Positions 34,268 through 38,428 of a stretch of 64,000 bases of DNA are shown here, piece by piece. Below the pieces are notes generated by a model. The model did no database searches. It was not told the origin of the DNA and worked only from the letters and a program-made list of their open reading frames with translations. Numbering within the stretch: the stretch's first letter is position 1; each line of letters opens with the position of its first letter. Both the position numbers and the translations under genes were made by a program. Origin of the DNA: Caulifigura coniformis (GTDB taxonomy: Bacteria > Planctomycetota > Planctomycetia > Planctomycetales > Planctomycetaceae); contig NZ_CP036271.1 in the NCBI RefSeq assembly GCF_007745175.1, positions 5,530,314 through 5,594,313 of the forward strand. Direction: 5' to 3'.

Positions 34268-35746
34268 TCAGGCGATCAGGTCTTCGATGACCCTGGCGGG
34301 CTCGACGCCGGTCAGCTTCTGGTCGAGCCCCTGGTGCTTGTACGTGAATCGCTCGTGGTCGAAGCCCAGGAGACGCAGCGTCGTCGCGTGGAAGTCGTGA
34401 ATGTGGACCGGATCCTTCACGATGTTGTACGAGAAATCGTCGGTCTCTCCGTAAATCTTGCCGGCGTTCGTTCCGCCGCCGGCCATCCACATCGTGAAGC
34501 AGCGTGGATGGTGATCACGGCCGTAGTTCTCTTTCGAGAGCCCCCCCTGCGAGTAGATCGTCCGGCCGAACTCGCCCCCCCAGATGATGAGCGTATCGTC
34601 GAACAGGCCGCGCTGCTTGAGGTCCTGAATCAGGGCCCAGCAGGGCTGGTCGACGTCGCGGCACTGGTCGGGCAGGCGGCCCGAGACGTTCGCGTGGGTG
34701 TCCCAGTTGTTGTGATAGACCTGGATGAAGCGGACCCCCCGTTCCACCATGCGGCGTGCGAGCAGCATCGTCTGTGCGAAGCTCCCGGGCTTCTTTGCCT
34801 CGTCACCATACAGCTGGTAGGTGGATGCCGGTTCCGAAGCGAGGTCGGTCAGCTCGGGGACGCTGCTCTGCATCCGGAAGGCAAGTTCGAACTGCTCGAT
34901 GCGGGTCTGGGTTTCGGGATCGCCGTACCGCTGGTGGGTCATTTCGTTCAGCGACTTCAGCCCGTCCAGCGTCGTCCGCCGCACGGCGGCATCGACTCCC
35001 GGCGGATTGTTGATGAACAGGATCGGGTCTCCGCCGGACCGGAACGAAACGCCGGAGTGCTTCCCCGGCAGATAACCCGACTGCCACAACCGGGCCGAGA
35101 TCGCCTGCACCTGTTCGGTGTTCGTCGGCTTGGCGACGAGCACTACGAACGTTGGCAGATTCTCGTTCATCGAGCCCAGTCCGTAAGAGGCCCAGGCTCC
35201 CAGGCAGGGGCGACCGGTAATCTGGTTGCCGGTCTGCATGTTGGTGATGGCCGGCTCGTGGTTGATCGCCTCCGTGTGCATCGAGCGGATGAACACGAGG
35301 TCGTCGACCATCTTCGAGGTGTAGGGGAGCAGTTCACTCACCCACATCCCGTTCTGGCCATGCTGGGCGAACTTGAACTTCGACGGCGCAATCGGGAACC
35401 GCTTCTGCCCCGAGGTCATCGTTGTCAGCCGCTGCCCCATCCGCACGGAATCGGGCAGGTCCTTGTCGTACCACTCCTGCATGACCGGCTTGTAGTCGTA
35501 CAGGTCGAGCTGCGACGGGCCGCCGACCATGTGCAGGTAGATGACGTGCTTTGCCTTCGGGGCGAAGTGCGGGGCGAACGGGCCGTCAACGCCGCCGGAG
35601 AGCAGGTCGGGGGCTCCGGCCGGAGTGGCGCCGAGCGAGTTCGTCCCGAGCAGCGAACTGAGTGCGGCGAAGCCGAGCGCGTTCTTGCCCTGGGTAAGGA
35701 AATAGCGGCGGGTCTGCTGCTGGAATGGGGAGGAAAACAGCGACAC
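34268..35746 (-). CDS. DUF1501 family protein
   Basis: I prefer the GTG at 35,746, which has GGAG eight bases upstream, over the in-frame ATG at 35,803; the product is then 492 residues. [17 protein letters not shown] is a twin-arginine-like segment suggesting Tat export. Family marks are [41 protein letters not shown] and [15 protein letters not shown]. It is a diverged paralogue of the protein at 11,706. It converges with the kinase gene, seven bases away. The DUF1549/DUF1553 partner seen in many planctomycetes is missing; instead, the region upstream holds duplicated non-coding DNA. Confidence 0.88.
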
Positions 35747-35855
35747 AGCCAAACTCCAGGAAGGGTGGGGCAGAGTGACCTGGAAAGGAGGGAGTCTTTC
35801 CAATGTATGCGGCGCGTCGAGAAATCGCCACGGCGGGGCGAGGGAACCCAGGACC

Positions 35856-36075
35856 GGTCACTTTTTCAGGATGGGCCAATTCGTCGTTGGGTTGCGCCGT
35901 TGCCGCAAAATGACTTGCGGTAACGAAAGTCGACCGACCGTGAAAAAGTGACTCGCCCCGCCCCAATCCCCACCTGCCCAAGCACTTCCGAGTACCGAGT
36001 ACCGAGTACCGAGTACCGAGTACCGGGCCCCCACCCGCGCAACCGCCCCCGACATGAGGGAGGATCCTATGAACA
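35856..36075. repeat. Duplicated element, copy A (with conserved hairpin)
   Basis: The first 102 bases (35,856-35,957) align without gaps to 36,291-36,392; by hand count about 82 of 102 bases match. Inside, CGTTGCCGCA at 35,898 pairs with TGCGGTAACG ending at 35,925, ten pairs including one G-T. After a variable part with the 7-base tandem repeat, similarity returns at CCCGCGCAACC and a purine-rich box before ATGAACAC (36,069). See the finding for interpretation. Confidence 0.8.
35989..36023. repeat. Tandem repeat of CGAGTAC, five copies
   Basis: Five exact head-to-tail copies of a 7-base unit occur inside the variable part of copy A. Copy B has no counterpart, so this accounts for much of the length difference between the two. 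Copy number is likely to vary between strains (inference). Confidence 0.95.
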
Positions 36076-36290
36076 CAACCACCGTCAACCTGTCGTCACA
36101 CACCCCGGCCTGGCCGGCTCCATGTCCGCATCACCCACGCTCTTCCGATCCCTCCGCGAAACTTCCTCAGGAAAAGAGGGCGAGGAGTACAGTACCACCC
36201 ACACAACGCGCCCTCCTTGCCCCCCTCGGCCTCAAACGCCTCCGCACTGTTCCCGATCCCTGCCCGTGCCTGCGACTTCCGCGCACGGCT

Positions 36291-36492
36291 GGTCACGTTT
36301 TCAAGATGGGCCAGTTCGTCGTTGGCGTTCGTCGTTGCCGCAACATGATCTGCGGTGACGACCGACGGCCTGTTGTGAAAAAGGGACTCGCCCTGCGAGG
36401 GAACGCCGCCCGTTGCGGAGTTTCGGAGCGAAAGGACCGGGGCCGCAGTCCCGCGCGCAACCCCTCACGAAACTGTGGAGGGACCATGAACA
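36291..36492. repeat. Duplicated element, copy B (with conserved hairpin)
   Basis: This copy lies about 435 bases from copy A in the same orientation. CGTTGCCGCA at 36,333 pairs with TGCGGTGACG ending at 36,360, ten pairs including two G-T, so the pairing survives a base change relative to copy A. It ends with GGAGGGACC before ATGAACACG at 36,486, a very short frame of eight codons. Confidence 0.8.
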
Positions 36493-36781
36493 CGATGACA
36501 GGAATTTCGTGACAGACCGAAAAACTACAGCCGGGCGTTCGGAAGCCATTGGTTTCGGCCCGTTCCCACCGTGCCACCGATGGGGGAAAGGGGGAATAGG
36601 GGCCAGAAAAACGCTCTCCTCGTCAACGTGCCCGTCTTGGTCTCTCACCCGCTGCCACCCCGGAAGGACGCGGTGCACCGGCGGGTGTGGCCGAAGTTCG
36701 GCGTGCAATGGGCCTCCTTTTGCGGTAATTTCAACGCACGGAGTGAACTCCGCGCTGGGGGGCTAGGTTCAGAGGGCCGGG

Positions 36782-38428
36782 ATGATGACGCCGTTCAAAA
36801 TTGCATGTCCGGATTGCGCGGCCGCGCTGCGGATCTCGGATCCGGCGCATCTGGGGAAGTCGGTGAAGTGCCCGCGCTGCAGTTCCCGCATGCTGGTCCC
36901 GACCGCCGAGGAGGCCGGAATCGAGGTGGAGGCGCCGGTTCGTCCACGTCCGCCGTCCCGTCCCGCATCGCGTCCTTCAGCGCTGCCCGCCAGCGCGCCC
37001 CGCCGGTCGAAGCCGGCCGATGACGATTTTCTGACTGGCTTTGACAGCGACGAGTTTGAAGACCTTCCCGTCGAGCCGGAGCCCCGTCCGAAGCCCGTTA
37101 AGAAGAAGCCGAAGAAGAAAAAGTCTTCACGATCCCGGCCCTTCGATACCTCGCTCGCCTGGAAGGGGGGCATCGCGGCCGCCGTCGTGGTCTGCGTGCT
37201 CGTGGGATGGAAGTTTGCCGCGCCGTTCGTCGACGTCAGCAAGTTGTTGGCGATGTTTGGCGGCGGGGGGACGAGCCCGGATCTCACGTGGCTTCCCGAT
37301 GGAATCGATGCCGTGGGCGAAGTCCGGGTGTCCGAACTGGTGCAGGCTCCGGTCGTGAACACGGCCCTGCAGTCGCCCCAGGCAGCGGCCGGCCTGGCGA
37401 TGATGAAGGGGATGCTCGACATCAACTTGCAGGATGTGGAATCGGTGCGATTTGGCATCTTCGCCAGTCCCAGTCCGATGTCCCCGCCCCGGGTCTCCGG
37501 CGTCGTGATTCTCTCCAAACCAGGACGCATCGGGGCCGTCCTGGAAGGGACGACTTTCGCCACGCCGCCCGGCGCGAACAAGGTCGGCCACGGGAGCCGC
37601 TTCCTCTACACGCTGACGGCGATGCCGACGATGACGCTGTGCTGCCTCGATGACCGCACGCTCCTCTTTGGCGGAATGAACGAATTGAAGGCGGTCCTCG
37701 ACAAGGAAGGGCGGCCCGAATCGACCTCCCGGTTCGGGTTTCTCGACAAGCGCCGCCAGTTCTCGCTGGTGATCGCACCGCCAGACATGAGTACCGCCAG
37801 CGGCTTCCTGGGGGCCTCGTCGTTTGCGATGTTCAAAGCGACACCGGTGACGGGCCTGTCCTTCGCGGCCGATGTCGATTCGGCACTGCGTGTCGCCTTG
37901 TCCGTGAACACGAAGTCGTCGAAAGATGCCGCGGATGCGAAGGTCCAGTTCGACCAGGGTTTGTCGAAGATGCTGGCGGTGTCCCCCCTTGCAGCGGGGG
38001 CGGACCCGTCGGTCAAGCAGGCGCTGCAGTCCGCGAAGGCGACGGTCTCCGGACGGACGGTGGCGGTGACCTTGGACCTGCCGGTCGAATCGATGGCGTC
38101 GGCCCTGGCCGCGGGGCCCTCCCCGTTCGGCCTGCCATCCAGTCGATTCTCGACTCCGCAGCCGGGGTTTAAACCGCTGATCAGCCCCACGATTCCCAAG
38201 GCGCCGGTGTATGATACGACCCCGCCGTCGTTCATCACCGAGCCGTCCACGACGGCAGAGGTGGGGCCGACCGAAATGCCTGCCGGCATTCCTGGATTCG
38301 GAACACCTGCTTCGCCGATGCCCCAGCCTTCAGCGCCGGCTGAGTCGACCCCGCCGGCCCAGTCGGCGTCCCCATTCCGGCCCGTGACGCAGCCGCAGAA
38401 CCCGGCGCGTCGTCCGTCGGGATTCTGA
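36782..38428 (+). CDS. Zinc-ribbon membrane protein (hypothetical, paralogue-like)
   Basis: The 548-residue protein begins with an MJ0042-type zinc ribbon (Cys9, Cys12, Cys30, Cys33), then a Pro/Ser/Arg-rich linker, a very basic stretch (KPVKKKPKKKKSSRSR) and a single helix around 120-140 (GGIAAAVVVCVLVGWKFAAPF). The extracytoplasmic part begins with WLPDGIDAVGEVRVSEL and continues through an alternating region to a Pro/Ser-rich tail of about 100 residues. It shares plan with the protein at 1758, but lacks the STN-like end. Its stop codon touches the stop of the convergent methyltransferase gene, forming TGATCA. The role is unknown. Confidence 0.72.
   Translation: MMTPFKIACPDCAAALRISDPAHLGKSVKCPRCSSRMLVPTAEEAGIEVEAPVRPRPPSRPASRPSALPASAPRRSKPADDDFLTGFDSDEFEDLPVEPEPRPKPVKKKPKKKKSSRSRPFDTSLAWKGGIAAAVVVCVLVGWKFAAPFVDVSKLLAMFGGGGTSPDLTWLPDGIDAVGEVRVSELVQAPVVNTALQSPQAAAGLAMMKGMLDINLQDVESVRFGIFASPSPMSPPRVSGVVILSKPGRIGAVLEGTTFATPPGANKVGHGSRFLYTLTAMPTMTLCCLDDRTLLFGGMNELKAVLDKEGRPESTSRFGFLDKRRQFSLVIAPPDMSTASGFLGASSFAMFKATPVTGLSFAADVDSALRVALSVNTKSSKDAADAKVQFDQGLSKMLAVSPLAAGADPSVKQALQSAKATVSGRTVAVTLDLPVESMASALAAGPSPFGLPSSRFSTPQPGFKPLISPTIPKAPVYDTTPPSFITEPSTTAEVGPTEMPAGIPGFGTPASPMPQPSAPAESTPPAQSASPFRPVTQPQNPARRPSGF

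Follow-up and report, generated by a model that had tools for sequence, protein, structure and literature searches.

A dispersed element of Caulifigura coniformis with ISAs1-type ends, probably a composite of two miniature transposable elements

Previous studies described several short mobile elements with which the element reported here can be compared. Among known systems in which a pair of miniature elements mobilises a core, TIME-COMP of Pseudomonas comes closest (consulted sections of PMC4133298): its two elements surround the core, move jointly with it and produce target duplications, and the direct orientation found in our element occurs in TIME-COMP2. However, TIME-COMP has Tn3-type ends, 5-bp duplications and gene-bearing cores (2.5 and 3.9 kb including the ends), and its transposition was demonstrated with trap plasmids, whereas we infer it for the present element. 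Of the intergenic MITEs that contain a tandem array, the one nearest to our element is, going by the available part of PMC4596501, BrickBuilt of Porphyromonas gingivalis (19 copies in one strain), which together with MITE464/PgRS shares with our element the intergenic position, a narrow host range and an internal tandem array; these differ, however, in having IS5-type ends, repeat units of 23 or 41 nt and no constant duplication length, and in sharing their genome with insertion sequences whose ends match theirs, and that part of the paper describes no composite of two direct-repeat modules for them. MITEPye1 of Paracoccus yeei (PMC11578231, excerpts) is likewise short and non-autonomous, with inverted and direct repeats, a preferentially intergenic position and a long stem-loop, but has IS1182-type ends and 1 to 3 copies per chromosome. 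According to excerpts of two further papers, insertion sequences of the ISAs1 family have a terminal inverted repeat starting with CAGGG and 10-bp direct repeats, DR (PMC11946415; one tabulated element has ends CAGGGCTGATGC... and a 10-bp DR, PMC6305408), which resembles our element, but they are about 1.25-1.3 kb long and carry a transposase (PMC11946415, PMC6305408), whereas the present element has none.

No ISAs1-type MITE is described in the consulted portions of PMC4133298, PMC11578231, PMC3542288 and PMC9208149, the terms 'ISAs1', 'Planctomyc' and 'CAGGG' are absent from the main text of a 2024 review of prokaryotic MITEs (PMC10969869), and no title or abstract among the papers retrieved for planctomycete MITEs or intergenic repeats deals with the present element. 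The element is ordinary in kind; what is unusual is that it is built from two smaller elements, is amplified as a composite and has ISAs1-type ends. It gives this genome a mobile-element family of its own and adds an ISAs1-type case to the composites made of two miniature elements.

We analysed a stretch of 64,000 nucleotides of the C. coniformis chromosome (NZ_CP036271.1, positions 5,530,314 to 5,594,313; hereafter the window), in which one insertion of a dispersed, protein-less transposable element of 547 bp was found (Table 1). A first-pass annotation had marked positions 35856-36492 as two diverged copies of a non-coding element with a conserved hairpin; the element boundaries are instead 35849-36395, and the annotation had not recognised the copies as opposite ends of a single mobile unit flanked by target duplications. 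Its local description was accurate: on recount, the two same-direction copies about 435 bases apart agree at 82 of 102 positions from 35856, both hairpins lie where it had placed them, the stem pair T-A of copy A is T-G in copy B, and MGQFVVG(L/V)RRCR can be read in both copies. The two copies, which we call modules A and B, lie on the same strand with a start-to-start distance of 435 and match over 113 nt at 79% (88 of 112 positions over the full module length by recount). The second match that it had noted before ATGAACAC is also real, but it belongs to a separate older repeat with one copy inside the element and another outside it, the latter past the right target duplication and 50 bp beyond the element. 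On one side of the window copy lies a minus-strand DUF1501 gene (34268-35803), on the other a plus-strand frame that begins at 36782; a scan of 35700-36900 found no sigma-70-type promoter and two terminator-like sites (1.5 in shuffles).

Table 1. Positions of the element, its parts and the adjoining repeats in the window
Feature	Positions	Strand	Remarks
Target-site duplication, left	35839..35848	.	CGAGGGAACC; 9/10 identical to the right one
Whole element, 547 bp	35849..36395	+	505-605 bp in 24/26 two-ended copies, window copy among them
End module A, 112 bp	35849..35960	+	inverted-repeat ends and inner hairpin
Terminal inverted repeat, left	35849..35868	+	window copy CAGGACCGGTCACTTTTTCA; majority CAGGGCTGGTCACTTTTTCA
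Inner hairpin, module A	35898..35925	+	10-bp stem, 8-base loop
CCGAGTA tandem array	35988..36025	+	5.4 units in window copy
Captured copy of genome motif GCGCAACC...GGAGG...ATGAACAC	36037..36076	+	
Captured repeat, second block (AGGGCGAGGAGTAC...ACGCGCCCTCCT)	36175..36217	+	present also at element-free loci
End module B, 112 bp	36284..36395	+	outer (right) end retains CCCTG
Inner hairpin, module B	36333..36360	+	10-bp stem, 8-base loop
Terminal inverted repeat, right	36376..36395	+	...GACTCGCCCTG
Target-site duplication, right	36396..36405	.	CGAGGGAACG
Older intergenic repeat copy, not part of the element	36455..36493	+	resembles 36037-36076

When the own genome (6.76 Mb, single contig) was searched with window positions 35840-36060, at least 51 matching pieces were obtained with the best 40 of 90 candidates scored (best match 1.2e-111, the window itself; next 8e-70), and with positions 36280-36500 at least 41 pieces with the best 40 of 134 candidates scored. 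We fetched 32 regions of this genome and compared them with the window. End modules are present at no fewer than 33 loci, 32 with module A (window included) and one with B only, and both modules are present at 26 of these. A search with the interior (best 40 of 83 candidates scored, so that copy numbers are lower bounds) added three loci at which the interior is present and complete end modules are absent. The right-end pattern gave 78 own-genome matches at up to 3 mismatches versus 0 for the reversed control; checked by eye, all 78 lie in these loci, and no solo 112-bp module was found among them. The two two-ended copies outside the usual length range measure 1106 bp and 2178 bp, and in the latter (L024) the heptamer array is split by an insertion sequence that has the ends CTCGACTGTCTCACG and contains a frame of 483 aa; we take this insertion sequence to be IS701-like. 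As judged from these comparisons, the genome carries a protein-less element at more than 30 places, mostly non-coding.

Flanking direct repeats of 10 bp agree at 7 or more of 10 positions in 20 of the 26 two-ended copies and at 9 or more in 16, versus 4 of 650 pairings reaching 7 or more when flanks were cross-paired between copies; at the 10-bp offset the duplication is absent from six of the 26. Module B is missing from six additional copies. Two of these repeat their ten upstream bases exactly after the interior, which would be consistent with a later loss of B or with a different right end, and in the other four the best match of the left flank is 6-8 of 10, like that of swapped flanks. 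In L023, which has no B, the left flank GAGTTCCGCG is repeated exactly after the interior and resembles the sequence preceding B in other copies; this may be coincidental, or it may be a relic of the place at which the composite was formed.

Both modules, which are direct repeats of each other, have inverted-repeat ends and an inner hairpin. Over the 20-position ends of all 59 modules, 82.1% of the cells are paired, and the arms of module A in the window copy are 19 nt long and 84% complementary. The outer ends are better preserved than the inner ones: CAGGG stands at the left end of 20 of the 32 A modules and 1 of the 27 B modules, and CCCTG at the right end of 24 of the 27 B modules and 6 of the 32 A modules. 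An enzyme acting at the outer ends would give this distribution of the terminal letters, and so would inheritance from one master copy. The element has the terminal inverted repeats, the duplication of constant length (10 bp) and the multiple copies without a transposase gene that are expected of a MITE, and, as in composite MITEs, two miniature elements surround a core while their outer ends define the insertion. The unit size and the 10-bp duplications would point elsewhere than to REP/BIME palindromes with a RAYT partner.

Mean identity is 0.863 among the 32 A modules and 0.872 among the 27 B modules, and A-B identity is 0.827 within one locus (26 pairs) versus 0.830 across different loci (838 pairs), from which it follows that A and B had diverged before the element spread and that the pair does not result from local duplication. 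Across 24 two-ended copies, congruence between the distances of A and those of B was sought and not found (r = 0.08; 412 of 2000 permutations as high), and the distances of the interior behave similarly (r = 0.09 with B, 303 of 2000 as high; r = 0.18 with A, 37 of 2000 as high). With the distances of A, B and interior so poorly correlated, these data do not establish that the unit descended as a whole; a star-like burst, or the exchange of parts between copies by gene conversion, would fit this result. An identical 13-base deletion between CGTCGTT repeats was also observed in A_L027, A_L038 and 15 of the 27 B modules; occurring in both A and B, it indicates repeated origin or exchange.

Insertion points also score as non-coding by codon usage. 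After the two flanks were joined, the median score at the insertion points was -0.6 versus 13.1 for coding windows of the 64,000-nt stretch; 500 bases away it reached 12 on the left side and 14 on the right. Only 3 of the 26 insertion points lie above the level exceeded by 90% of the coding windows. Of the 322 windows put in the non-coding class, 60% exceed this threshold as well; the class is impure, since masking was limited to long frames. A stop-free-stretch test of gene breakage by the insertions gave no discrimination, and the codon-usage score was used instead.

Sequence comparison shows that the element combines dispersal, defined ends, target duplications, a composite build and a mostly non-coding placement, and has no sign of RNA constraint. 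We consider, with a probability of roughly 0.87, that it is a composite, non-autonomous DNA transposon of the MITE type, made of two miniature elements of about 112 bp and mobilised in trans by an ISAs1-type transposase. A and B presumably began as solo elements. In the course of events that we propose, the diverged miniature elements A and B, with CAGGG...CCCTG ends, would have come to enclose, in direct orientation, about 290 bp of non-coding DNA, in which the heptamer array is found together with a decayed version of an older intergenic repeat of the host. An ISAs1-type transposase would then have acted in trans on the two outward-facing ends, the left one of A and the right one of B, whereupon the whole unit of about 515 bp would have been inserted with a 10-bp target duplication. 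The unit would have reached more than 30 places, the majority of them non-coding, before decaying.

The first-pass annotation had offered a short peptide gene, a structured RNA or a dispersed repeat, with a recent local duplication as the fallback, and it is the dispersed repeat that proved correct. Selection on the hairpin of a structured non-coding RNA, present once or as a tandem pair, could account for modules that fold better than shuffles (z -4.3 and -3.7) and for a stem paired at 92.0% across 59 modules, but shuffles give the same mean pairing (92.2%), none of the 10 stem pairs is changed on both sides in these 59 modules, and the opposite strand folds too (z -5.3 and -2.9), as palindromes do. 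Moreover, only a tRNA exceeds the Rfam gathering scores in the window, Rfam gives nothing at E 1 in 12 more loci (one of them a fetched element copy), and 58 relatives have no DNA match; we therefore regard an RNA under selection as extremely unlikely. The dispersed element explains a repeated intergenic pattern that might be mistaken for an RNA gene, and it serves as a caution: where copies are mobile, the preservation of a stem in two of them does not count as evidence for selection on an RNA. Very unlikely, too, is a short peptide gene, read either from the 26-codon frame MGQFVVG(L/V)RRCR... or from ATGAACAC. Most A modules preserve the full length of the 26-codon frame, ATGAACAC has a GGAGG box in front of it, and pN/pS of the 26-codon frame is 0.52 in 28 gap-free A modules (28 of 32 usable; 10 of 200 column permutations as low, mean 0.93), which may be a hint of constraint, weak at most; yet the other five frames over the same span range from 0.54 to 1.25 with an antisense frame at 0.54, 15 of 27 B modules and 2 of 32 A modules lose the 26-codon frame through the 13-base deletion, the ATGAACAC frame varies between copies in length and frame, and the 152-aa frame in the window has no Pfam match. 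As for a recent local duplication without mobility, the two diverged copies 435 bp apart are what it would leave, but the A-interior-B layout recurs at 26 loci, A-B identity is equal within and between loci, and most flanks carry duplications; together these refute it, and we leave it next to no chance.

The identity of the mobilising enzyme is a further point on which readings may differ. PF13808, the ISAs1 domain, has 0 matches in the own genome, whereas 3 of 14 control genomes were positive; with no detectable ISAs1 transposase of its own, the genome gives the mobiliser only by inference. The likeness between the ends of the element and those of ISAs1 stops after six to eight letters, and no match to one particular ISAs1 element was found past the first eight letters among the ends from relatives' loci and in the consulted part of PMC6305408. 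PF13808 is matched in 58 of 120 genomes of the family. When 30 PF13808 loci of relatives were searched with the end sequence unrestricted, three had an exact duplication with an inverted repeat; in two cases the ends are CAGGG and the duplication has 10 bp, while the third is a non-CAGGG case that looks like chance. A search restricted to CAG...CTG ends at 57 loci (46 separate places by count) found 16 with CAGGG at both ends, which are 1251-1296 bp apart, four of them being copies of one G064 element. Thirteen of these places could be scored: an exact 10-bp duplication is present in 4, and 9 have 4/10 or less, one of the nine with a duplication offset by one base. Some ISAs1 elements of related genera thus have CAGGGC ends and exact 10-bp duplications, the G064 copies likewise, and the one G064 protein scanned is NF033564, an ISAs1 transposase. 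The same kind of element could instead have been mobilised by another transposase family, for example the IS4-like one of this genome, in which seven PF01609 matches were found, three of them near-identical copies of one element whose protein (one copy scanned) is nearest to NF033592, the IS4 family, at 109.9 bits against a cut-off of 115; two of the seven proteins have no NCBIfam match. Within the IS4 family, target duplications near 10 bp are found too. We nevertheless hold this to be unlikely, given that the ends of the IS4-like element (GGGTGCCATGCAACGCC..., the one transposase for which ends were compared) are unlike CAGGGCTGGTCAC, and that CAGGG with 10 bp is the pattern published for ISAs1 (PMC11946415, excerpt), which the outer ends and direct repeats of our element share. 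The published pattern, the loci of relatives and the absence of PF13808 from the own genome together make an ISAs1-type enzyme, gone or too diverged to detect, the likeliest mobiliser of the composite element; presumably it was lost later.

The first-pass annotation had proposed to search the genome and related planctomycetes for the core, and the outcome was divided: the own genome holds many copies, and 58 relatives, including one from its own genus, yielded no DNA match at E 0.001. In a genome collection, which may omit the own genome, the exact element-core pattern had 0 matches, and the exact end pattern had 3 (Oligoflexus, Sumerlaeota and Sporosarcina records). A covariance model built from the 59 modules and searched over 150 genomes of the family matched the own genome and gave four weak matches elsewhere. 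One of these, in a genome of another genus that has PF13808 matches (G016), is a solo relative of 135 bp with CAGGGC...GCCCTG ends and a duplication GAGTGGGAGG/GAGTGTGAGG (9/10), which shares the 15 bases TTTTTCAAGATGGGC exactly with the consensus left end. Its existence supports the view that A and B derive from a miniature element that stood alone. At L212:703-985, two 53-nt inverted-repeat arms, 81% complementary to each other, enclose this relative. Two other matches belong to a different palindrome family with GGGGTCGGGC ends, and the third was rejected because it has no CAGGG ends. The palindromes with GGGGTCGGGC ends, in L210 and L211 (G130, G030), are about 100 bp long, and L210 has two copies 419-421 bp apart.

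Further, the interior of the element is related to other repeats of this genome. The CCGAGTA-type heptamer array has 0-13 exact units across the 32 copies with A, and the blocks at 36037-36076 and 36175-36217 are common to an older intergenic repeat at element-free places. The pattern of the 5' block gave 111 own-genome matches at up to 3 mismatches versus 2 for the reversed control, a count that includes element-internal copies and a second repeat family with the same 15-base start; in relatives it gave 9 versus 0 in G013, 4 versus 0 in G067 and 4 versus 0 in G047, where the matches look like chance. The repeat can be written as the degenerate motif GCGCAACC-N-CTCACG-N6-TGGAGG-N4-ATG(A/C)ACA, which is intergenic and in many cases followed downstream by a GGGC...ACCACCCAC...GCGCCCTCCTCG block; example sites are L052, L054, L055, L066-L069, L076, L082, L084, L089 and window positions 36455-36493. 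A scan of 864 kb found 20 motif sites of at least 20 bits versus 1 in the control, which on reading comprise 5 element copies, 4 second-family members and 11 that are neither, the last of which would extrapolate to several dozen such motifs genome-wide. By a rough gene call, 30 of 31 rows lie outside genes (one place is counted twice, and element and second-family copies are included), and in 22 of the 31 the next gene is on the same strand, many 280-490 bases on, an orientation that is uninformative in divergent spacers. It is conceivable, though we think it quite improbable, that this interior class (the GCGCAACC motif followed by a GGGC...GCCCTCCTCG block) is a working leader or RNA, in which case the MITE would spread a ready-made translation-start or leader cassette before genes.

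A second dispersed intergenic repeat was also observed, which starts with GCGCAACCCCTCCCGTCAGGGTGGAGAGTTCGTTCTTTGGCAACGCAAACA and continues with short repeats of the TCACACATGTCACAGG type. It is present at L064, L070, L071, L073, L074, L077-L081, L085-L088, L090 and L091, among which L081 and L091 are more diverged members of the GCGCAACCCCTCCCGTCAGGGTGGAGAGTTCGTTCTTTGGCAACGCAAACA family.
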